A stretch of DNA of 64,000 nucleotides. Source: Rhodothermales bacterium. Lineage in GTDB: Bacteria; Bacteroidota; Rhodothermia; Rhodothermales; Bin80. Below, in pieces: positions 33,781-64,000 of the stretch. Position 1 is the first letter of the stretch, and every line of letters starts with the position of its first letter. Under the pieces are notes generated by a model. The model made no database searches, was not told the DNA's origin, and saw only the letters and a program-made list of their open reading frames with translations. Made by a program: the position numbers and the translations under genes. The stretch covers positions 1,189,246 through 1,253,245 of the forward strand of contig CATQHT010000003.1 in assembly GCA_958296045.1 (NCBI GenBank), given 5' to 3'.

Positions 33781-36700
33781 TCATTCTTCGCGCACGCGCA
33801 TCGCTTTCTTCGCTTCAGCGACGACTTCACTCACGGTTAAGCCCGTGAACCCGGCGGCCCGCAAACCTCTAATAAAATCCGGGTCGACTTTATACTTGGC
33901 CAGAGCGAGCAAGCCATCTATGGTCACATCCAAGAGGCCGAGGTCCCGCATTGCTCGGATGTATTCCGGCGTAACATCATGCTTGACCAGTTTAATAAGG
34001 TTACTCGCGGTCAAGTCAACGAAGCCTATGGCCTGGATATCTCGGATGTATTCCAAATCAATGTCAGCCAAGACGAGAAGCTCGTGCGCACTCATATCCC
34101 CCAAACCAGCCGCCTGAAAGGCGCGGATCCACTCTGGATCAACGTCATTGTGAGCCAAAACGAGAAGCTGGTGGGCGCTCATATCCCCCAAACCAGCCGC
34201 CTGAAAGGCGCGAAACTGCTCTGGATCAACGTCATTCTGGGCCAAAACGAGAAGCTCGTGGGCACTCATATCCCCCAAACCAGCCGCCTGAAAGGCGCGA
34301 ACCTGCTCTGGGTCAACGCCATTCTGGGCCAAAACGAGAAGCTCGTGGGCGCTCATATCCCCCAAACCAGCCACCTGAAAGGCGCGAACCTGCTCTGGGT
34401 CAACGTCATTCTGAGCCAAAACGAGAAGCTCGTGGGCGCTCATATCCCCCAAACCAGCCGCCTGAAAGGCGCGAACCTGCTCTGGATCAACGCCATTCTG
34501 AGCCAAAACGAGAAGCTCGTGGGCGCTCATATCCCCCAAACCAGCCGCCTGAAAGGCGCGAACCTGCTCTGGATCAACGCCATTCTGGGCCAAAACGAGA
34601 AGCTCGTGGGCGCTCATATCCCCCACACCAGCCACCTGAAAGGCGCGAACCTGCTCTGGATCAACGCCATTCTGGGCCAAAACAAGAAGCTCGTGGGCAC
34701 TCATATCCCCCAAACCAGCCGCCTGAAAGGCGCGAATCTGCTCTGGATCAACGTCATTCTGGGCCAAAACGAGAAGCTCGTGGGCGCTCATATCCCCCAA
34801 ACCAGCCGCCTGAAAGGCGCGAATCTGCTCTGGATCAACGTCATTCTGGGCCAAAACGAGAAGCTCGTGGGCACTCATATCCCCCAAACCAGCCGCCTGA
34901 AAGGCTCGGATCCACTCTGGATCAACGTCATTGTGAGCCAAAACGAGAAGCTCATGGGCACTCATATCCCCCAAACCAGCCGCCTGAAAGGCGCGAACCT
35001 GCTCCGGATCAACGCCATTCTGGGCCAAAACAAGAAGCTCGTGGGCACTCATATCCCCCAAACCAGCCGCCTGAAAGGCGCGAACCTGCTCCGGATCAAC
35101 GCCATTCTGGGCCAAAACAAGAAGCTCGTGGGCACTCATATCCCCCAAACCAGCCGCCTGAAAGGCGCGAACCTGCTCCGGATCAACGCCATTCTGGGCC
35201 AAAACAAGAAACTCGTGGGCACTCATATCCCCCAAACCAGCCGCCTGAAAGGCGCGAACCTGCTCCGGATCAACGCCATTCTGGGCCAAAACAAGAAACT
35301 CGTGGGCGCTCATATCTCCCAAACCAGCCGCCTGAAAGGCACGAACCTGCTCTGGATCAACGTCATTCTGGGCCAAAACAAGAAGCTCGTGGGCACTCAT
35401 ATCCCCCAAACCAGCCGCCTGAAAGGCGCGAACCTGCTCTGGATCAACGTCATTCTGGGCCAAAACAAGAAACTCGTGGGCGCTCATATCTCCCAAACCA
35501 GCCGCCTGAAAGGCACGAACCTGCGCTGGATCAACGTCATTCTGGGCCAACACGAGAAACTCGTGGGCGCTCATGTCCCCTAAACCAGCCGCCTCAAAGG
35601 CGCGAACCTGCGCTGGATCAACGTCATTCTGGGCCAACACGAGAAACTCGTGGGCGCTCATGTCCCCTAAACCAGCCGCCTGAAAGGCGCGAACCTGCGC
35701 TGGATCAACGTCATTCTGGGCCAACACGAGAAACTCGTGGGCGCTCATGTCCCCTAAACCAGCCGCCTGAAAGGCGCGAACCTGCGCTGGATCAACGTCA
35801 TTCTGGGCCAAAACAAGAAGCTCGTGGGCGCTCATATCTCCCAAACCAGCCGCCTGAAAGGCGCGAACCTGCGCTGGATCAACGTCATTCTGGGCCAACA
35901 CGAGAAACTCGTGGGCGCTCATGTCCCCTAAACCAGCCGCCTGAAAGGCGCGAACCTGCGCTGGATCAACGTCATTCTGGGCCAAAACAAGAAGCTCCTG
36001 GGCGCTCATATCTCCCAAACCAGCCGCCTGAAAGGCACGAACCTGCTCTGGATCAACGTCATTCTGGGCCAAAACAAGAAGCTCCTGGGCGCTCATATCT
36101 CCCAAACCAGCCGCCTGAAAGGCGCGAACCTGCTCTGGATCAACGTCATTCTGGGCCAACACGAGAAACTCGTGGGCGCTCATGTCCCCTAAACCAGCCG
36201 CCTGAAAGGCGCGAACCTGCTCTGGATCAACGTCATTCTGGGCCAAAACAAGAAGCTCGTGGGCGCTCATATCTCCCAAACCAGCCGCCTGAAAGGCACG
36301 AACCTGCTCTGGATCAACGTCATTGTGAGCCAACACGAGAAACTCGTGGGCGCTCATGTCCCCTAAACCAGCCGCCTGAAAGGCGCGAACCTGCTCTGGA
36401 TCAACGTCATTCTGGGCCAAAACAAGAAGCTCGTGAGCGCTTAGATCCCCCAAACCAGCCGCCTGCATTGTGCGAGCATACTCTGGGCCGACCCCATTCT
36501 GAACCAGAAGTACAAGGTCATCTACGGTCAAGCCTACAAGGCCGAAGCCCTGCATGGTCCGGATATATTCTGGGTTGATATTATGCTCGGCCAAAGTGAT
36601 GAACTCACTCACATCCAAATTGGTAAAGCCCAGGCTTTCGATCGCATAGATAAAAGTGCTATCAATGCCGTACCTGTTGCGCAGCATCCTGCGTTGCGCA

Positions 36701-38103
36701 GCGGTAAGTGTATCCGTAGATGGAGCATCCCAATTCGTGTCGACGCTCAAGCCGTAGTCAAAGCTGTCGTCGATAGCTACACGTAAATTGGAGAGTCGAT
36801 CCGCTCCAATGGTAAAGCCGAAATCGGGATCACTGATGAGGGCCTCGGAGACAATGTAACCCACATCGTTGGACATCGGCATTGCGTCGGCCGCAACTTC
36901 GTTACCCCCTACGGTCGGCAATATCTCATGTTGGCCTTGGGCGGGATACAGCGCGGACAGCGGCAACACCACGCATGCCGCTATCACGACAGCCATGGTC
37001 ATTCCAGCCGAGCTCAGGCTCCGACGGTACAACGACGAATTAAGAATGGCCGCTAGGCGGCTTTCCAACTGGGCGTGCCGGGCCATGGCCACCGCCGCCA
37101 CCGCCGGTCTTTTCGCCAGATACAACGAACGAGCAGTCTCCAGCAAGATCTCGGCATACGTAGATGGCTGCATGCCGGCAGACAGTACCAAGTCGTCGGA
37201 AGCCCGCTCCCGCTCAATGTGCGATTGACGAGCAGCTACCCACACCAAGGGATTAAACCAGTTGAAGGCGCAGGCAACTTGCGTTAAGAATTGCATCAGG
37301 CAGTCGCGGCGTTTGACGTGCGCCAGCTCATGGAGTAACACCATCTGGCGGTGCTGGTCGTCCCACGTCTTTGCCACCTCTGGCAGGATGATGACAGATC
37401 GCCATAGGCCGACGCTCAACGGAACAGCCGTCCACACGCTCCAACGAAGCCCCACCGTCCGCCTCAGGCCAAGCCGGTTGGCCATATCTCCAGCCAACGT
37501 GTGCCAATCGTCGTCGCGCACAATCGTTCCTCGGCTAACGAGAAGGTGCACGCCAGCGTGTGCAATGGCCATCCGAACCAGCACGAACAGCAGCCCCGCC
37601 AGCCACACCAGAAACACCCAAGTCGACCAATGGAAATCGAGACTTGTAAAAAGGCCCGATGCGGCCGCGTCCAAAGGAGGAGGGGCTTCAGCCCGCTCCA
37701 CATGCGCCGATGCCGCAGCCGCGGGAGTGGACCCTTCGCTGACTGTCGACAGCGTCGGTGACGCCTTAGCCGGCACAGCCATCGGAGCATCCAGAAGCGG
37801 AAGTGGGGCCGATCTCACTTGCGGAACCGCATGCCGAGCTTCCTGAAACGGAACGGCCGTTTGGGGAACAAGGCCGGTCTGCCAATGCGGCAGCAGTGCC
37901 GATAGCACCGGCAGCGCGAGCAGACTCAAAAGCCCCGCGCACCACACCATATGGCGGACTGCTGCCGAACTGCGCCGCAAGGCACATACCATGAGCGCGG
38001 CCACAGTCAATAACAGCATACCCTTGACAAACAGCACCAGCATCGACGCGAACCAAGCACTCATGTTGGCAGGAAACTGGGAGAACTCAAGTAACATGTC
38101 CAT
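33781..38103 (-). CDS. BlaR1-like M56 metallopeptidase with giant 29-residue repeat array
   Basis: A 1440-residue membrane sensor peptidase. Residues 1-345 form the M56 domain, with membrane helices (VLFVKGMLLLTVAALMVCAL; LLSLLALPVLSALL; TWVFLVWLAGLLFVLVRMAI). The zinc site is HELAHVKRRDC at about 255, with the downstream ERERASDD. Another helix follows at about 360-380. Residues 548-1357 are 28 repeats of 29 residues, almost identical (LVLAQNDVDPEQVRAFQ, then AAGLGDMSAHEL). Two or three diverged units flank each side. In BlaR1/MecR1 the peptidase cleaves the partner BlaI repressor when the sensor domain is triggered. Here the penicillin-binding sensor is replaced by helical repeats, which probably face the periplasm and bind a protein or ligand. 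It starts 2 bp after the blaI-like gene. Confidence 0.9.
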   Translation of the reverse strand: MDMLLEFSQFPANMSAWFASMLVLFVKGMLLLTVAALMVCALRRSSAAVRHMVWCAGLLSLLALPVLSALLPHWQTGLVPQTAVPFQEARHAVPQVRSAPLPLLDAPMAVPAKASPTLSTVSEGSTPAAAASAHVERAEAPPPLDAAASGLFTSLDFHWSTWVFLVWLAGLLFVLVRMAIAHAGVHLLVSRGTIVRDDDWHTLAGDMANRLGLRRTVGLRWSVWTAVPLSVGLWRSVIILPEVAKTWDDQHRQMVLLHELAHVKRRDCLMQFLTQVACAFNWFNPLVWVAARQSHIERERASDDLVLSAGMQPSTYAEILLETARSLYLAKRPAVAAVAMARHAQLESRLAAILNSSLYRRSLSSAGMTMAVVIAACVVLPLSALYPAQGQHEILPTVGGNEVAADAMPMSNDVGYIVSEALISDPDFGFTIGADRLSNLRVAIDDSFDYGLSVDTNWDAPSTDTLTAAQRRMLRNRYGIDSTFIYAIESLGFTNLDVSEFITLAEHNINPEYIRTMQGFGLVGLTVDDLVLLVQNGVGPEYARTMQAAGLGDLSAHELLVLAQNDVDPEQVRAFQAAGLGDMSAHEFLVLAHNDVDPEQVRAFQAAGLGDMSAHELLVLAQNDVDPEQVRAFQAAGLGDMSAHEFLVLAQNDVDPEQVRAFQAAGLGDMSAQELLVLAQNDVDPEQVRAFQAAGLGDMSAQELLVLAQNDVDPAQVRAFQAAGLGDMSAHEFLVLAQNDVDPAQVRAFQAAGLGDMSAHELLVLAQNDVDPAQVRAFQAAGLGDMSAHEFLVLAQNDVDPAQVRAFQAAGLGDMSAHEFLVLAQNDVDPAQVRAFEAAGLGDMSAHEFLVLAQNDVDPAQVRAFQAAGLGDMSAHEFLVLAQNDVDPEQVRAFQAAGLGDMSAHELLVLAQNDVDPEQVRAFQAAGLGDMSAHEFLVLAQNGVDPEQVRAFQAAGLGDMSAHEFLVLAQNGVDPEQVRAFQAAGLGDMSAHELLVLAQNGVDPEQVRAFQAAGLGDMSAHELLVLAQNGVDPEQVRAFQAAGLGDMSAHELLVLAHNDVDPEWIRAFQAAGLGDMSAHELLVLAQNDVDPEQIRAFQAAGLGDMSAHELLVLAQNDVDPEQIRAFQAAGLGDMSAHELLVLAQNGVDPEQVRAFQVAGVGDMSAHELLVLAQNGVDPEQVRAFQAAGLGDMSAHELLVLAQNGVDPEQVRAFQAAGLGDMSAHELLVLAQNDVDPEQVRAFQVAGLGDMSAHELLVLAQNGVDPEQVRAFQAAGLGDMSAHELLVLAQNDVDPEQFRAFQAAGLGDMSAHQLLVLAHNDVDPEWIRAFQAAGLGDMSAHELLVLADIDLEYIRDIQAIGFVDLTASNLIKLVKHDVTPEYIRAMRDLGLLDVTIDGLLALAKYKVDPDFIRGLRAAGFTGLTVSEVVAEAKKAMRVREE
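34033..36462 (-). repeat. 28 tandem 87-bp repeats inside the M56 gene
   Basis: Exactly 2430 bp: 27 units of 87 bp and one terminal unit of 81 bp. It encodes 28 copies of a 29-residue helical motif with only a handful of variable positions (HEL/HEF, QND/QNG/HND, DPEQ/DPAQ, RAFQ/RAFE). DNA identity between neighbours is very high, including synonymous sites, so the array has been recently expanded or homogenised. Confidence 0.97.
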
Positions 38104-56470: not shown

Positions 56471-56478
56471 TGCGCCAC

Positions 56479-56546
56479 CAATTCCGGAGCATGCGCGCCA
56501 TCAATTCCGGAGCATGCGCGCCATCAATTCCGGAGCATGCGCGCCA
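56479..56546 (+). repeat. Three tandem 23-bp repeats at the IS21 left end
   Basis: Units at 56479-56501, 56502-56524 and 56525-56546 read CAATTCCGGAGCATGCGCGC and so on, nearly identical. Multiple internal end repeats are the usual IstA-binding sites in IS21 elements. The first unit overlaps the terminal repeat. Confidence 0.8.
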
Positions 56547-56681: not shown

Positions 56682-58262
56682 ATGGCAACCCGTCGTATTC
56701 CCATGAAGAGAGTTAGGCGCATTTTGGTGCTTTACTTTGAGCGATCCTACTCTGAGCGCCGCATCGCTCAGCATGTAGGAGTTGGTCGTCGTACGGTATC
56801 TCGCACGCTTTCGCGGTTGAAGCTGTCGGGATTGACCTGGGCGCAGTGCAAGGAGTTGAGCGATATCGATCTACAGAACAAGCTTCACGGCTCGCCTGGG
56901 CCGCAGCGCGCCACGGATCGTCCATTATCGGACTGGGATAAGGTTCACCGGCAGCGGCTGGAGTTCTCGTATTTGACGCTGCGAGCGCTATGGCTCGAGT
57001 ACAAGGAGGAGCATCCGAATGGCTTGGAGTACAGTCAGTTCTGCAAGCGGTATGGTGACTGGCGCAGGAGTGATCCGAGCGTGGACATGCGCCTGGAGCA
57101 TCGTGCGGGCGACAAGCTTTTCATAGACTACTCGGGCAAGCGGCCGTCGCTTATTGACCCGTCAACGGGCAAGGCGCGCGAGGTGGAGCTGTTCGTAGCA
57201 GCGCTGGGCGCTTCGCATTACGTTTATGCGGAGGCCACGCTGACGCAGAAGCAGAAGGACGTGTGTATGTCGCTTCGCCGCTGCCTGGAGGCGTTAGGGG
57301 GCGTTCCCCGCATGGTGGTGCCCGACAACATGAAGACGGCCGTAGCCCGCGTGAACCGGGGCGACGTACCGAAGATCAACGCCAAATTTCAGGAGCTGGC
57401 CGATCATTACGACTGTGCTGTGGTGCCTGCTCGTCCACGACATCCACAGGACAAAGCTATCGCCGAGAAGTCGATTCAGCTTGTTCAGAGGCAGATCTTA
57501 GCACGGCTTCGGCATGAGCGCTTTCTGAGTCTTACCGATCTTAACACCGCCATACAACGCTTGTTGGTGGACCTCAATGCCCGGCCCTTCCAGAAGAAGA
57601 AGGGCAGCCGTCAGAGCTGGTTTGAAGAGGTGGACAAGCCAGCCCTGCGTCCGTTACCGCCAGCGCCCTATCGTTATTCGGAATGGACTAGCAAGCGGAA
57701 GGTGCAGACCAATTATCATGCGGCGATCCAAAACGCCTACTACAGCGTGCCCTATAAGTACGCTGGACGCACAGTGTACGCGCTTGTGGGCGAGAATACG
57801 GTACAGATCTTCCTTGATAAGGAGGATGATATGGCTATTGCCTCGCATCCCCGCTCCCCCTGGAAAGGGGATTACGTGACGATAGAGGACCACATGGCCT
57901 CTCAGCACCGCGCGTACAGCTCTTGGACACCGGAGCGATTCATACGCTGGGCCGCCACATTCGGGCCCAACACGCAGACGCTTATTGAAGCGAACTTCGG
58001 CCGTTTCCGCATCCCCGAGCAGTGCTACGTGCGTTGCAGAAGCCTGCTGAACCTAGCTAAGAAGCATGGCGCACCAGTCATGGAGCAGGCCGCTGAGGAG
58101 GCGCTCGAGCGCGGAAGGCTCAGCTATCCCGCGGTCAAAGAAATCATTAACCAGCTTGTTCGCAAACGCGGCACCAAGCAGCACCGCACCGTGGCTCACG
58201 ACAACATTCGCGGCGCCACCTATTACGGCTCCGCATCAACCCAAGGAGGGGACCCATGTTAA
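56682..58262 (+). CDS. istA: IS21-family transposase IstA
   Basis: A 526-residue DDE transposase. The N-terminal helix-turn-helix (SERRIAQHVGVGRRTVSRTLSRL) is followed by the integrase-like core with Asp in FIDYSGK (about 147), Asp in VPDNMKTAV (about 215) and Glu in DKAIAEKSIQ (about 261). The C-terminal part carries YSVPYKYAGRTV and VAHDNIRGATYYG. It cuts and joins the element ends together with IstB. The gene looks intact and overlaps istB by 7 bp. Confidence 0.95.
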   Translation: MATRRIPMKRVRRILVLYFERSYSERRIAQHVGVGRRTVSRTLSRLKLSGLTWAQCKELSDIDLQNKLHGSPGPQRATDRPLSDWDKVHRQRLEFSYLTLRALWLEYKEEHPNGLEYSQFCKRYGDWRRSDPSVDMRLEHRAGDKLFIDYSGKRPSLIDPSTGKAREVELFVAALGASHYVYAEATLTQKQKDVCMSLRRCLEALGGVPRMVVPDNMKTAVARVNRGDVPKINAKFQELADHYDCAVVPARPRHPQDKAIAEKSIQLVQRQILARLRHERFLSLTDLNTAIQRLLVDLNARPFQKKKGSRQSWFEEVDKPALRPLPPAPYRYSEWTSKRKVQTNYHAAIQNAYYSVPYKYAGRTVYALVGENTVQIFLDKEDDMAIASHPRSPWKGDYVTIEDHMASQHRAYSSWTPERFIRWAATFGPNTQTLIEANFGRFRIPEQCYVRCRSLLNLAKKHGAPVMEQAAEEALERGRLSYPAVKEIINQLVRKRGTKQHRTVAHDNIRGATYYGSASTQGGDPC

Positions 58263-59014
58263 TCCATCCCATCGTAGCTAAGCTTGAACACATGCGCCTG
58301 GTTGGCATGGCCAGCGCTTTGCGAGATCAGCTCGTAACCCCAGATATGGCCGAGTTCGGCTTTGAGGAACGCCTGGGACTGATGGTCGATGCCGAGATGG
58401 CACGGCGCGAATCACGTCGCTTGAATCTGAGACTCGGGCGCGCTAAGCTAAAGTGTCAAGCAAGTATGGCCGACGTCGACTACGGAAAGGGGCGTGGCCT
58501 CAGCAAACGACTCATGCTGCATCTGGCCAGCTGTCAGTGGATTCAGCGGCATGAAAATGTCATCATTACCGGCGCGACAGGCACGGGCAAGACCTACTTG
58601 GCCTGTGCGCTGGCTCATAAGGCATGCCTAGAAAACTACCGGGCACAATACCACCGCCTTTCGCGACTCTTACAGGATATGCACCTCGGGCGCGCCGATG
58701 ATACCGATCGGAAACTCCTGCGTAAGATGTCAAAGATCGATGTATTGATCACCGACGACTGGGGTACCAGCGAAGTGAACGTCACGCAACAACGCTACCT
58801 CTTGGAGCTGTTCGACGACCGATACCAGAGTCGGTCCACCATCGCGACCAGCCAAGTCCCCGTGGAACAATGGCACGACACCATGGAAGATCCTACCTTG
58901 GCCGATGCCATCCTTGACCGACTGGTTCACAATGCACACCACATCTCACTCAAGGGTGAACCCATGCGCAAAACACACGCCCTGCGGAGCATCAAACCCT
59001 ACGGCCAGGTATGA
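58256..59014 (+). CDS. istB: IS21-family helper ATPase IstB
   Basis: A 252-residue AAA+ ATPase. Its N-terminal domain (HPIVAKLEHMRLVGMASAL) is followed by Walker A TGATGTGKT (about 105) and Walker B VLITDDWG (about 165), then ATSQVPVEQWHDTMEDPTLADAILDRLVH and the IstB ending. It oligomerises on target DNA and directs IstA. The start overlaps istA (translational coupling). With istA it makes a potentially active element. Confidence 0.95.
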   Translation: MLIHPIVAKLEHMRLVGMASALRDQLVTPDMAEFGFEERLGLMVDAEMARRESRRLNLRLGRAKLKCQASMADVDYGKGRGLSKRLMLHLASCQWIQRHENVIITGATGTGKTYLACALAHKACLENYRAQYHRLSRLLQDMHLGRADDTDRKLLRKMSKIDVLITDDWGTSEVNVTQQRYLLELFDDRYQSRSTIATSQVPVEQWHDTMEDPTLADAILDRLVHNAHHISLKGEPMRKTHALRSIKPYGQV

Positions 59015-59099
59015 CACATACACATGTGTGCAAAGGCCGATTTCGCGCCCCTGACGCAAGACGTAGGGTGGCGCGCTTGAAGCCGGAATTGGTGGCGCA

Positions 59100-59384
59100 G
59101 TGGATCGGAATAGGCAGACGCTCACCTTGCACCGTGCCGGGGCCTATGTGGCATTGGGGCGCAGCTTAACGACGACGCGCGTGATTACGCGTCTGGCGCA
59201 GCGACTCTGTGGGCGCCTGCGCCAACGCTCAGACTGGATGCCATCGGATCAGCGCAGTACCTTTATGGCCCTTGACCTGATGGCCATGGAAGCAGGGATG
59301 TACCGCTTGGGCCACGCCGCGTATCTTCCGGCGCTGCGTGAGCAGCTTACCGGCTTAAATCAACCCCACTCTACGAGAAAATGA
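59100..59384 (+). pseudogene. C-terminal fragment of IS256-like transposase beyond the IS21 element
   Basis: 94 codons aligned with the C-terminus of mutator-type transposases: QTLTLHRAGAYVALGRSLTTTRVITRLAQ, then YLPALREQLTGLNQ. It begins right at the IS21 right end and is probably the other half of the frame that ends at 56470. The two halves do not join perfectly: both contain the ETL region and the reading phase differs. The junction may therefore have been rearranged. Confidence 0.5.
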
Positions 59385-60782
59385 GCGCATTTACGATCAC
59401 AATCACGGCTGACGGGCGAATAACAGGGATCCAGGAAGCCTTTTCGAAGATGAGCTTGGTTGATCTCATCGCTCGCGTGGTCAACTGGCCGAGTCTGCAT
59501 CTGAAAATGATCATGGCCGTCATGGCTGCGGAGGTCGAGGCGCTTTGCGGCAAACGCTACAGCAGGAAGGGTGCCAGCCAGAGGCCTTGCTACCGGCATG
59601 GCACCAACCCCGGTACGGTCCGCATTAGTGGGCGCCGTGTGCCGATCAGGGTGCCCCAGGTACGCGACGTGAAGGTAAAGTGCGAGCGTGTCCTGCGCAG
59701 CTATCGCGCGTTTCACGAGGCGACAATCAATGAAGATGCGCTCATGCGCACCTTGTTCTTCGGCGTCAGTCAACGCAACTACGAGGCCATCGCGGACGAG
59801 TACACCGATGCGTTCGGGCTGAGCCAATCATCGGTAGGTCGCATCTTCCGGCGCAGCGCTGCGAAGGTACTGAAGGAATTCTATGAACGCCCGCTGAACG
59901 ACTACGATCTGGTAGGTCTGTTCATCGATGGCAAGTACTTTCGCAAGCACCAGGTGCTCATCGCCATGGGGCTGACCTCTGAAGGTAAGAAGGTCGTTCT
60001 TAGGTGCGTCGAAGTGGGGTCCGAGAGCCAAGAGGCCACCAAGGGGCTCTTAGAAGACCTGCTCGACCGGGGTCTGCAAATACATCAGGGCCTGCTCTGC
60101 GTCGTCGACGGCGCCAAAGGGATCCACGCCGCTATCAAAGAGGTCTTCGGCGGGTTCGTGCAGGTGCAGCGCTGCTGTTGGCACAAGCGGGAAAACGTCG
60201 TGGCCCACATGAGCAAAGAAGATAAGCTCGTATATCGCGCGCCTGCAGAAAGCCTATCAGATTCCAGACTACAGAGACGCGAAGGCGGAGCTCCTATCGA
60301 TCAAGGACGACCTGGAAGCCTCCAACCAACTCAAGGCCATGAAGAGTCTGGAGGAAGGCATGGAGGAAACGCTCACGATCCAAAGGCTCGCAATAGCCAA
60401 AGAGCTCGGCCAAAGCCTGCGCACCTCCAACTGTATTGAGAATCTCAATAGTACCCTCGGCAGATTGACGCGCAATGTTTGCAGTTGGAAAAACTCGGCA
60501 CAGGTACACCGCTGGACGGCGCTGGCGCTCATGTATGCAGAACCCAAACTGAAAACCATCCCCAATCACCAACACCTGCTCAAGCTCCGAGAGGCACTTA
60601 TGAAGGCCAAGACCCGACTGCCAAACCCCAAAATCCCCTTCTCCCCCCAGCCACGTTTCCACTACTTTTGGCCCACCCCCTTACGAAACAGCCGCTCGCG
60701 GCGAAACTGGGGATGGAAGATGCCGAATCCGGTGAACGAACTGCGGTTGCCTCTGGTGAACCTCAGCAGCGCAGGACACTAA
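59381..60782 (+). pseudogene. Frameshifted IS256-family transposase
   Basis: The first part (59381 to about 60240) is a good IS256-family transposase: KRYSRKGASQRPCYRHG, VPIRVPQVRD, Asp in GLFIDGKYF, Asp in CVVDGAKGIHAAI, and VQRCCWHKRENVV. At about 60236-60243 (CGCGCGCC) the frame changes. The rest continues in the +1 frame with ARLQKAYQIPDYRDAKAELL, EEGMEETLTIQRL and TSNCIENLNSTLGR, where the catalytic Glu of the family lies. Loss of one CG from a CG-rich run would explain it. It is probably inactive unless ribosomes slip there. Confidence 0.8.
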
Positions 60783-60805
60783 GCGCTGGGCGGGCCTATC
60801 TTCGT

Positions 60806-61738
60806 TTATGTCTCGGACCCGTTCATCGTGGGAAAGGTCTGAAAGATGTAGTCCGTCATGATCAGCATGTTCATGCTTTCCTTGTGCGTCGAGTATGGTA
60901 TCAATCCATGAAGGGCGGCGTGACGATTCGGGACCGGCATCTGCGCGAGTTTTGCCCGGTTACCTTTTACCGACTCGTACATGTGGTCCACAAAATAGCC
61001 GAAAAGGTCAATGGCGAATGGTTCTCCAGACACGAAATCCGCCAAGGTTCCCGTGCTTGTCAGTTTCTCAATTTCTTTTTTACGTACGCGTCCGAGCCCG
61101 ATCACCCTCTCGATTTCGGGAAACAACACGCAGCAGACGCACCGGTAGTATCCAGCCGCATGGGCCGATAAGGCTTCCCGGTAGGTCTCCTTCGCCTCAT
61201 CGTCTATGAGATAGTCATTGAGCCGCAACTCCAGATCGTCGCGAATCTCACTCCACCGGGTGCGATAGAAGTCGTCGAGACGTTTATCTAGGAGGACAAG
61301 GTCGTCGCCGCATTCTTTGACATAGTGGAAGGGTGTGGTATGATATGGAAGCCATCCCACCGCCTTAAAGGCCTCCCCGGTGAGGGCCCACTCAATGAAC
61401 GCTCGGCCATAACGTACGAGCTCGTCCATCTGTTTCGCCAGACGCTCGGGGAAGGGTTCGAGCCCGTCCATCTGCTCATCCAAACGCTCGGCGAAGAGAT
61501 TGAGCTCGTCCATCTGTTTCTGCAAACCCTCGGCGAAGGGTTTGAGCCCGACCATCTGTTTCGCCAGACGTTCGCGGAAGGGTCCGAGCTCGTCCATCTG
61601 TTTCGCCAAACCCTCGGCGAAGAGATTGAGCCCGTCCATCTCTTTTTCCAAACGCTCGACGAAGAGTTTGAGCGCGTCGGCGAATCGCTGAAATGCCGCA
61701 GACAGCTGGGTAAAAAAGTCGTTCTCAGAGGTCCCCAT
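60806..61738 (-). CDS. Coiled-coil protein with possible C-terminal HEPN domain
   Basis: A 310-residue protein not belonging to any transposon family I recognise. Residues 23-106 are six 14-residue (double-heptad) repeats such as LNLFAEGLAKQMDE, giving a coiled coil. Residues about 115-310 are a mostly helical domain ending NRHAALHGLIPYSTHKESMNMLIMTDYIF. The R-x4-H in NRHAALH, followed by a hydrophobic helix with Asp, is the pattern of HEPN-type domains, many of which are ribonucleases in toxin, Abi and defence systems. No partner antitoxin is adjacent. It is flanked by broken insertion sequences, suggesting accessory origin. Confidence 0.6.
   Translation of the reverse strand: MGTSENDFFTQLSAAFQRFADALKLFVERLEKEMDGLNLFAEGLAKQMDELGPFRERLAKQMVGLKPFAEGLQKQMDELNLFAERLDEQMDGLEPFPERLAKQMDELVRYGRAFIEWALTGEAFKAVGWLPYHTTPFHYVKECGDDLVLLDKRLDDFYRTRWSEIRDDLELRLNDYLIDDEAKETYREALSAHAAGYYRCVCCVLFPEIERVIGLGRVRKKEIEKLTSTGTLADFVSGEPFAIDLFGYFVDHMYESVKGNRAKLAQMPVPNRHAALHGLIPYSTHKESMNMLIMTDYIFQTFPTMNGSET
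61421..61672 (-). repeat. Six tandem 42-bp repeats encoding double-heptad coiled coil
   Basis: Six units of 42 bp within the coiled-coil gene, diverged but in register. Each encodes a 14-residue unit ending in variants of KQMDEL/EQMDGL. Confidence 0.85.
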
Positions 61739-62247
61739 GGTGCATTTTGACCAGTTTGTTGGAAGTGCAGATCACGGAAGTCTCACACCGCGCGCTGCGG
61801 CAGACCGGCCCGATCCGGGATCGCATAGACGCATAGGTGATGGAGCGGCGATCCCAAGCCACAAGATAGTGGATCAGTAGTTCAAAAGTTTGATGCACGG
61901 CAAGAAGTCACCGATTCTAAATTTGAGGCGTTCGATGGGGCAACGGATCTTGTTTTGCGGTAGGCTACGTGCACGCGGGCTGTGAGGTAGGCGGTTAGTG
62001 GAAGGAAACGTACAATGAGAAGCTACATTTGAGGCGCCACCAATCCGCCCGAGGCATACGACCGCCTTCCAGGCCTCTGGAATTCCCGGCTATCCTATTT
62101 ATGACATACAATCTTTCAGGCTCTCGCGGCGGAAGGCACCAGCGGAGGCGAACGACGCTACAACATGCTTTCCCAGAGACTTCGCCAGTCGGGGATTGGG
62201 TAGCTTATCGTACCTGCCCGTAATGCATCAAAGAAATCGCGGCGCAC
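61739..62247. other. Intergenic region with candidate IS end
   Basis: About 510 bp with no convincing gene. It contains GATTCTAAATTTG at 61912-61924, the inverted partner of 63608-63620, which may mark the left end of the IS carrying the 62248-63477 transposase. Confidence 0.35.
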
Positions 62248-63620
62248 CTAGTAGGATGCTCGGCATTGCTTCCACAACCCTTTTACTTGGTCGAGCGTCG
62301 TATGCAGGGCAAATGCCAACAGGTTGAGGGTGGCTAACAGGTTTGCCAGCCCATTTTTGCCATGCCCGAAGTTGTGTTTGAAGTTCTGTCCGTGTCGTGC
62401 GAGGCAATTGAAGCACTCGTTCTCGATCTTCCAGCGCGCCCGCCCACAACGAGCAACCTCCTGTACATTGTGCTTCGTTACCGTCAGGCTGGTGAAAAGC
62501 GTCGTGTAGAAGGTCTGCTTGTAGGTGCCCTGCTTTTGGCGTACCCGCACGGTCTTTTCCACCCATGTGCCGTGTACGGCATCGTCCGTGTTCCGAATCG
62601 GCAGATCGGACATCCATCGATAGCTGTGCTCTTCGTAGCGACGTGTCTTCTTGTTCTGCACCCGAATCCAACCGGTGCTCTGGATATAGCGCTCGTGTAA
62701 GAACTTGAATAGCGTGCTATGCGACTTGGGTTTGACCACAAACAGGAAATCGGCGCCCGCATGGAGCACCTGTTAGCAGAAGGGGTGTGTGGCATATAGG
62801 GCATCTCCCAGATATACTGGACGATAGCGAGCCATGCGAGCTCCCCACTTCTTTAACCACCGCTTAGCGGCATTAATCTCGCAATCCTGCTTGCGACGCC
62901 GTACCGAGTGCTGGTCACCAGGATCATCCTGTGTGCGGACAAACTCTGGCATCAACGGTACCACACGGTTGTGCCCTGGAGCCACCACAACCGCCGCCAC
63001 CATGGTATGGAAGAACGAGGGACGCTTGTCTTTGCCCGTGCGACGAGAGGAGCATTGCTGACAACAGATTGTCCGAGAGGAATGAAACTTGATGCCATCA
63101 AGCGCCACGAGGATGCGATTCCTCAGACGTACAAACGGCGAAAAGTCTCCCTTGGAACGAAGCGTATCCAGCAGGTGCAGAAACAGGAACTGAAATGAGT
63201 CTGGCACTAGGCGGTCCATCAGGTTGCGGATCTGCCCGTCAGAGGGAATGCCTTGCATGCCAAACAGCGTCTGGCAGTTGGAACGGCTCACGTCGTCCTG
63301 CATCCTCCGCTGAAAAGCAAGAAAGGAGGGCGATTGCAGAAAGAAGCAGGCAAATGCGCTCAACACGGCATCGGCCATCGTGTAGCGCAGATTGGGCCCC
63401 TGACGGTGATCTTCAAATGCACCGGCGGCCGACCGGATGCGTTTCAGCACATCGCGCAGCAGCTTGCTTGGTTTCATGGGTGTACCTCAGAGTGAAAGAC
63501 AAAAGCATGCTATAGCAGGGCATCGCAGGACCGGTATTGCCAGTCCATACACCCATTATACACATATCGTCTGCTGAACAGGCATTCCCGTAAACCCTTC
63601 ATGTATCCAAATTTAGAATC
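61912..63620 (-). mobile_element. Candidate insertion sequence around the broken DDE transposase
   Basis: A 13-bp perfect inverted repeat (GATTCTAAATTTG at 61912-61924, CAAATTTAGAATC at 63608-63620) brackets the transposase pseudogene. A GGCAAGAAGT direct repeat lies just outside both arms, a few bases away. The boundaries are tentative; the left end leaves over 300 bp of non-coding DNA inside the element. Confidence 0.4.
62248..63477 (-). pseudogene. IS4-superfamily DDE transposase with in-frame TAA
   Basis: One continuous frame from ATG 63477 to TAG 62248, broken by a single TAA at 62773-62775. Before it: RYTMADAVLSAFACFFLQSPSFLAFQ, then RILVALDGIKFHSS (first Asp region) and RPVYLGDALYATHPFC (second Asp). 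After it, directly in frame: QVLHAGADFLFVVKPKSH, WKIENECFNCL (Glu region) and GHGKNGLANLLATLNLLAFALH. All three catalytic blocks are present, so one point mutation (probably CAA or GAA to TAA) inactivated it. The exact IS family is uncertain (IS4 superfamily, ISNCY-like). Confidence 0.75.
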
Positions 63621-64000
63621 GCTGGCAAGAAGTTGGTTGCATTGCCATCCGCCTACTCTGGAGCCTTCCGCTGCCAGACCTTCAACGATTGCACGTTAAC
63701 AACAGGATTACCGGGGATGCCAGATACCTGGAAGGCCATCGTAGTCTCTCGGGCAGACGAATAGCGATCCAAATGTGGCTTCTTGTTACCCGTTCCAGCC
63801 CTTCAACAGCCTCCTCTGCAGCTCGCGTGCGTGTAGCCTACTCAATAAAAGACCCGTTACTCGGCCGAAAACCCTAGATTCAGAATTGCTGGGTCACATC
63901 AATGTGGATCGGATTATGAAGCCAGGGAGTCTCCTTCTCCCGAACCGCAATTCTAATTGTCGCTGGTCTCAATTCTAGTTGTCGTTGGACAAGCATTGTG
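63478..64000. other. Terminal region without gene, with IS-end-like motifs
   Basis: About 520 bp with no credible ORF. It contains the inverted-repeat arm at 63608-63620 and a 22-bp tandem repeat at 63948-63991. Several variants of (T/C)AGAAT(C/T)GCTGG-like sequence are scattered from 63611 to 63990. Confidence 0.35.
63948..63991. repeat. Two tandem 22-bp repeats near the window end
   Basis: CAATTCTAATTGTCGCTGG and CAATTCTAGTTGTCGTTGG head two adjacent 22-bp units (18 of 22 identical). They could be part of another mobile-element end that continues beyond the window. Confidence 0.4.

Follow-up and report, generated by a model that had tools for sequence, protein, structure and literature searches.

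A HEPN-like gene with a repeat-encoded stalk adjoins a PIN-toxin gene remnant between insertion sequences of a Rhodothermales bacterium

Organization of the locus

The window, a 64,000-nucleotide stretch of a Rhodothermales bacterium contig, carries an ATG-initiated reading frame of 310 codons, free of internal stops, whose product joins a stalk of short repeats to a C-terminal helical domain (C-domain) resembling HEPN domains (Table 1). The G+C content at the three codon positions of this frame (0.60, 0.35 and 0.69) is coding-like, as it is in five neighbouring genes, and the protein occurs once in the window's genome. On either side of the gene lies an insertion sequence (IS), the edges of which we set from copies elsewhere in the genome. 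The Mutator/IS256-type element, which has 7 near-full genome copies (98–99%), comes within 124 bases of the HEPN-like stop codon, and the DDE_Tnp_1-type element on the other side has 14 near-full copies (91–95%). The transposase of the former is frameshifted into two frames in the window and that of the latter is likewise split, in agreement with a preliminary description that had placed the gene between dead IS elements. The genome is very IS-rich, with 74 matching places for the query 61700–64000 and 42 for 59000–61000, many of them truncated.

Table 1 Features of the locus (positions in the window)
Feature	Position	Strand	Details and evidence
HEPN-like gene, 310 aa	60806–61738	−	14-residue repeat stalk and C-terminal helical domain
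42-bp tandem array coding for the stalk, 6.2 copies	61418–61678	−	TRF score 305
C-terminal HEPN-like domain, residues 112–310	60809–61405	−	Alignments; AlphaFold model of the domain alone, pLDDT 80, pTM 0.82
FPEIER block, residues 206–211, with candidate helix-2 acidic residue E210	61106–61123	−	E210 in 12/12 rows of alignment A4
R-H-A-A-L-H-G motif, residues 272–278 (Rx4H)	60905–60925	−	R272 in 12/12 and H277 in 11/12 rows of A4
PIN-toxin gene remnant	61725–61898	−	PIN residues 113–161 matched at 61731–61877
Mutator/IS256-type IS, split transposase	59116–60681	+	Genome copies; Pfam
DDE_Tnp_1-type IS, transposase over two frames	61909–63625	−	Genome copies; Pfam, both matches below the curated cut-off
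IS21-type istA/istB pair, both frames open, outside the system	56682–59014	+	ORFs; Pfam

A tandem DNA array encodes the stalk

Six 42-bp DNA repeats had been described for this gene, and TRF recovered them as an array with a period of 42 and 78% matches, corresponding to six in-frame units of 14 residues (residues 26–109). When the ORF was analysed by itself, the best TRF score was 389, compared with a maximum of 52 among 200 codon shuffles, ruling out a low-complexity artefact as the source of the repeats. Because the codon differences between repeat units comprise 81 nonsynonymous and 13 synonymous changes, the array gives no indication of purifying selection. The units show by eye a hydrophobic spacing of 4-4-3-3, with proline recurring at the unit edge. 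The double-heptad coiled coil proposed earlier thus stands as a 14-residue unit with a roughly heptad pattern but not as one assured coil, the AlphaFold model breaking the stalk into several helices at a pLDDT of 42–53. Weak matches to LegC2/C7, WTAP and spike-derived sequences were confined to the stalk and were set aside as consistent with a generic helical repeat.

The C-terminal domain resembles HEPN domains

The C-domain terminates in MPVPNRHAALHGLIPYSTHKESMNMLIMTDYIFQTF and a short tail. Its end motif, PNRHAALHG, holds R272 and H277 at Rx4H spacing, as the preliminary reading of a helical domain ending in NRHAALH-G had it. HEPN domains are defined by an Rx4-6H motif in the account of the superfamily given in PMC3710099, and the modelled C-domain fits the helix order and motif position set out in that account; the fold criterion that we applied was four helices, an insert after helix 2 and the motif ending helix 3. 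In the full-length AlphaFold model, built on nine sequences (the C-domain alone was modelled on seven), pLDDT is 79–96 across most of the C-domain and 50–69 in an insert at approximately residues 211–250. A helix at 180–195 is followed by one at 198–214 containing E210, the insert, a short motif-bearing helix at 272–276 and, from residue 285 on, a long final helix.

Fold comparison of the full model by VIA placed seven HEPN entries (2hsb, RnlA 6y2p, AbiV 9bj5 and 9bj7, sacsin 3o10, 1o3u and 1wol) at the top of the C-domain rows with Z of 4.6–6.5, the first unrelated row scoring 4.2, in a range (Z below 8) that can arise by chance among helical bundles. The C-domain model yielded a short VIA list of 36 chains, among which these seven entries were absent and which was led by 1ufb (Z 5.3, rmsd 2.9, 92 residues), an entry that we take to be a HEPN protein. 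In BFVD, the C-domain model had a single credible match, its top one, to a phage protein of the DUF4209 family (probability 0.97, TM 0.60, 223 columns, E 0.28), and the next row had a probability of 0.09. Foldseek gave no usable PDB match with the full-length or C-domain model, and no match of either model in PDB, or of the C-domain model in BFVD, had an E-value of 0.001 or lower.

At the sequence level, searches of the HEPN-like proteins against PDB sequences, Pfam, NCBIfam, PADLOC and PHROGs returned sub-threshold matches at most, and the window protein itself obtained no meaningful family score in the last four libraries. The HEPN RNase layout anticipated in the preliminary description is partly supported by the motif, by the conservation of E210 and by modest fold matches to HEPN structures and to a viral DUF4209 model, but not by Foldseek significance or, in the profile searches run, by profile confirmation of kinship. 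A predicted fold unlike HEPN had been named beforehand as counter-evidence, and the model did not provide it. We consider membership of the C-domain in HEPN likely. That it is some other helical fold, in which the Rx4H motif is a coincidence, would accord with the modest Z values and the missing profile match. This we judge improbable, given that few blocks are invariant in a family extending to 22% identity, the motif being one of them, and that the best solved structures and viral models matched to this domain are, respectively, HEPN entries and a DUF4209 protein.

DUF4209 appears in PMC3710099, in its treatment of the C6orf70 HEPN family, as a group that keeps the motif and occurs in R-M operons. 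DUF4209/C6orf70-type HEPN (PF13910) provides the best viral fold match of the window C-domain, and in each of the two R[NH]xxxHG comes after a P-x-[IV]-E helix, the elements being in register in a profile comparison. That comparison was weak with five sequences (probability 0.3%, E 0.18) and, with both motifs in register, weak again with ten (E 0.026). A trimmed DUF4209 profile comparison scored 18.7, against a mean of 12.6 (sd 2.3) for column shuffles, 1 of 150 of which did as well, and 14.2 for the reversed profile. PF13910 matched neither the window protein, up to an E-value of 10, nor any of ten relatives or their proteins, and we therefore did not file the window protein as DUF4209. The full-length DUF4209 proteins encountered in this analysis differ in being mostly ~580–620 aa long, with no 14-residue stalk or PIN partner noticed. 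A DUF4209 scan of the viral_contigs collection returned 54 stretches, none of them confirmed.

Relatives are conserved at the motif

A C-domain profile, searched against 395 genomes sampled from the phylum, matched nine places in seven genomes including the window's own, all of the window's family; one of these loci (L029/L006) carries a stop and two (L031 and L033) are fragments. Scanning of the genome_contigs collection revealed four loci with near-identical proteins (L013–L016), in metagenome-assembled genomes whose record titles read Gammaproteobacteria (two), Candidatus Palauibacter denitrificans and Gemmatimonadota. Scans of viral_contigs added the relative L034, and a motif pattern applied to the same collection returned nine stretches, five of which held an ORF aligning along the C-domain (L044, L045, L047, L050 and L049, the last being the L034 contig again). 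The first viral_contigs scan, made with the window core, gave 16 stretches and no relative. Two further motif patterns gave 11 and 7 stretches, the 7 including the already known L044, L045, L049 and L050; an ORF with the motif was present at 5 of the 12 new loci, none of them relative-like by eye. There was no tblastn match to the window core or the L034 protein in the plasmid and phage collections, or to the L050 query in the plasmid collection.

Conservation of the arginine and histidine had been set beforehand as a check on the HEPN proposal, and it held in alignment A4, which comprises 12 rows after omission of the broken L006, the fragments L031 and L033 and the near-duplicates L013, L015 and L016. 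The invariant columns, in window numbering, are H193, F206, P207, E210, P270, N271, R272 and S288; G278, like H277, is kept in 11 rows, and the row lacking the histidine is L004. The residue after the arginine is H273 in 10 rows and Q or E in the remaining two, which accords with the polar residue, mostly N, D or H, that HEPN domains have there. HEPN domains also carry an acidic residue in helix 2, as a rule inside Ex3[KR]; E210 sits in the helix preceding the insert, and the basic residue of an Ex3[KR] arrangement, at position 214, is R in 7 of the 12 rows and G214 in the window subgroup. The C-domain nearest to that of the window is that of L014 (49% identity), from another phylum, and a tree in which one of nine inner branches was firmly supported placed the window nearest L014 and L002. 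The gene has probably moved horizontally.

No lag was stronger than that of 14 residues in the window stalk and in those of L005, L006, L007 and L014, which did not hold for L002 and L050. When aligned with the window stalk, the stalks of L006 and L007 each beat all 300 of their shuffles, that of L005 equalled its best shuffle, and those of L014, L002 and L050 fell below theirs. On the basis of the lag and these alignments, the repeat design seems to predate the DNA array of the window.

Several relatives from the window's family are damaged or changed (L006 by a stop, L007 by a divergent C terminus, L031 and L033 as fragments, L004 by loss of the histidine), which looks like fast turnover. 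The relative L039 (genome G007) and the fragment L041 (genome G011) adjoin members of one gene family of ~390–430 aa (starting MNANRALRRI), perhaps because insertions favour this site.

A PIN-toxin gene remnant lies upstream

Directly upstream of the HEPN-like gene, a remnant ORF corresponds to the final third of a gene for a PIN toxin, its matched segment being 53% identical to the L014-type PIN protein (E 5.3e-10). Because of its score of 130 against the L014 PIN (26 of 47 residues identical), as opposed to 54–76 against five PIN proteins encoded by its own genome, we ruled out that it is a copy of the genome's own PIN loci. The last 14 nt of the remnant ORF lie inside the HEPN-like gene, the same overlap as in L013–L016, where a 162-aa PIN gene ends 14 nt within the HEPN-like gene. 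The label PIN for the 162-aa product is based on a weak Pfam match, below cut-off at E 0.017, and on residues read by eye. Similarity to PIN stops 31 bases short of the edge of the DDE_Tnp_1-type IS, and among the 11 matches to the L013–L016 PIN in the window's genome at E-values up to 1, the remnant included, there was no other part of the PIN gene near the remnant. In the simplest history, an L014-type operon once stood in the window and two thirds of its first gene went missing at the IS, presumably by deletion.

The genome's own PIN loci (L017–L021, some broken) are each followed by an overlapping ORF of 70–74 aa (overlap 20–47 nt). These ORFs look like uncatalogued antitoxins; a PIN protein and two small ORFs tested from this set had no Pfam match at E 0.01. 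An antitoxin-like segment of this kind is present in the HEPN-like protein of L014, at approximately residues 16–59 (39% across 41 aa, 43% across 44 aa; E ~3e-9 in pairwise comparison), and the HEPN-like proteins of L013–L016 consist of an antitoxin-like N-terminal peptide, a stalk of 14-residue period and the HEPN-like domain. In the window protein, residues 1–130 scored 17–20 against six antitoxin-like sequences, compared with a shuffle 95% level of 31–32 computed for two of the six, and an antitoxin segment was rejected; because the peptide is absent, we regard the window protein as an orphan. There were likewise no PIN or antitoxin matches in the flanks of L002–L007, L034, L044, L045, L047 and L050. 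As in VapBC, the PIN gene of L013–L016 overlaps a gene with an antitoxin-like segment, but here the partner bears a stalk and a HEPN-like domain, and the window keeps a PIN remnant alone. The complete operon of PIN gene and chimera was seen in four near-identical contigs only. The cassette formed by PIN gene, chimera and an MmeI gene recurs under different phylum titles in L013–L016, reflecting either a mobile element or mis-binned contigs.

Neighbours of the relatives include defence and viral genes

Among proteins encoded beside the relatives (10 + 4 + 2, chosen by eye and scanned; three, two of them at L035 and L037, had no family), L014 neighbours an MmeI protein, L016 a GmrSD protein and a relaxase, and L036 (the L003 locus) a Fic protein, with a sub-threshold NERD match on the opposite side. 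L050 lies beside Abi_C and an integrase-type Arm-DNA-bind_3 match; L034, on a viral contig, beside DUF4145, YfbU and a sub-threshold HNH_5 match; and L045 beside terminase and DUF4055 genes. As the neighbours were picked by eye, they describe the company the gene keeps and not a tested enrichment. This company fits the accessory gene of abortive-infection type proposed in the preliminary description, which had missed the PIN-toxin remnant next door; with that remnant adjoining, the gene appears as the surviving half of a toxin operon and not as a lone accessory gene.

Proposed function and alternatives

We suggest that the gene probably survives as the second gene of a former PIN-toxin operon and encodes a stalk-borne HEPN-like protein, most probably a metal-independent RNase effector of toxin–antitoxin or abortive-infection type. 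In such an effector, R272 and H277 would form the candidate catalytic pair, with E210 assisting, and the putative RNase activity of the C-domain might be triggered when the stalk brings about pairing or rearrangement. In the L014-type operons, the antitoxin-like peptide would tie the C-domain to the PIN toxin. The HEPN-like domain of L013–L016 could thus be held and silenced in a toxin–antitoxin complex until a phage or stress signal frees or pairs it. In the window, approximately two thirds of the PIN gene would have gone up to the IS edge, the antitoxin-like peptide being absent and the stalk having expanded at the DNA level, while the orphan presumably continued to be expressed. Without antitoxin-like peptide and PIN toxin, the window copy may therefore be harmless in the absence of a trigger, or the gene may be silent.

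Alternatively, the window copy could be a functionless pseudogene in decay and the relatives alone would matter, for its PIN partner is truncated at the IS, the probable operon start is lost and relatives of the same family are broken in the ways described above. Yet all 310 codons of the frame are open, its motif is intact and it has coding-like codon-position G+C, which is compatible with recent loss all the same; this leaves decay a real but lesser prospect. The HEPN-like domain could also lack nuclease activity and regulate the PIN toxin in a structural or RNA-binding capacity, pairing the antitoxin or bringing the toxin to RNA. Its fusion to an antitoxin-like peptide beside a PIN gene in L013–L016 would suit such a role, as would the persistence of the window copy without a visible antitoxin, on account of which that copy may not be toxic, and a comparable function is suggested in PMC3710099, in its remarks on Swt1, for the motif-less HEPN domain of that protein. 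The catalytic-type residues are, unlike in Swt1, kept in 12 and 11 of 12 rows, and the viral_contigs relatives, L002, L003, L005 and L007 lack the antitoxin-like segment and have flanks without a PIN match, so that we consider a purely regulatory domain unlikely.

Returning to the effector that we favour, the operon of L013–L016 might constitute a two-RNase toxin–antitoxin system: the antitoxin would double as a latent second toxin, with an N-terminal peptide that plugs PIN and a stalk that bears a HEPN RNase. This idea is speculative and we would not yet bet on it; if it is true, two different RNases would be released together when the complex falls apart, and orphans of the window type would show the HEPN half outliving its partner with an expanded repeat stalk.

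Three known systems offer points of comparison. RnlA–RnlB (RNase LS) is, as summarized in PMC3710099, a HEPN RNase silenced by a partner and used against phage, and the RnlA structure 6y2p matches the full model with Z 5.6 over 129 residues; RnlB is a separate protein, whereas the L013–L016 relatives fuse an antitoxin-like peptide (for a PIN toxin) and the window protein lacks it. Tha, in the description given by PMC11087260, is a prophage-carried HEPN protein that blocks other phages. We liken it to the window protein by description, not by sequence comparison; Tha is under the control of an antisense-encoded protein. Swt1, a eukaryotic protein that by the account in PMC3710099 combines PIN and HEPN in one polypeptide with a HEPN domain that has lost its motif, similarly unites the two folds in one functional unit, but here the genes are separate and the motif is intact.

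The HEPN-like family, which has a simple, testable motif, is unnamed in the four libraries searched (Pfam, NCBIfam, PADLOC and PHROGs), and its members are located in viral contigs as well as next to genes for restriction and abortive infection. The pairing of a PIN gene with an antitoxin–HEPN chimera is the layout revealed here; literature searches combining HEPN with VapB, VapC, PIN, antitoxin, prophage or abortive infection, and for DUF4209, gave no such operon in the titles or abstract openings among the matches listed.

Other repeat arrays in the window

Two further arrays lie elsewhere in the window. A 23-bp unit is repeated in 3.3 copies with 98% matches at 56472–56546, with a Mutator-type transposase fragment on one side and the IS21-type pair on the other. 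On the minus strand, a 1,440-aa ORF (33781–38103) contains an array (34067–36465) of ~27 copies of an 87-bp, 29-residue repeat with 94% matches, and the N-terminal half of its product resembles by eye what we presume to be a BlaR1/M56-type membrane protease.
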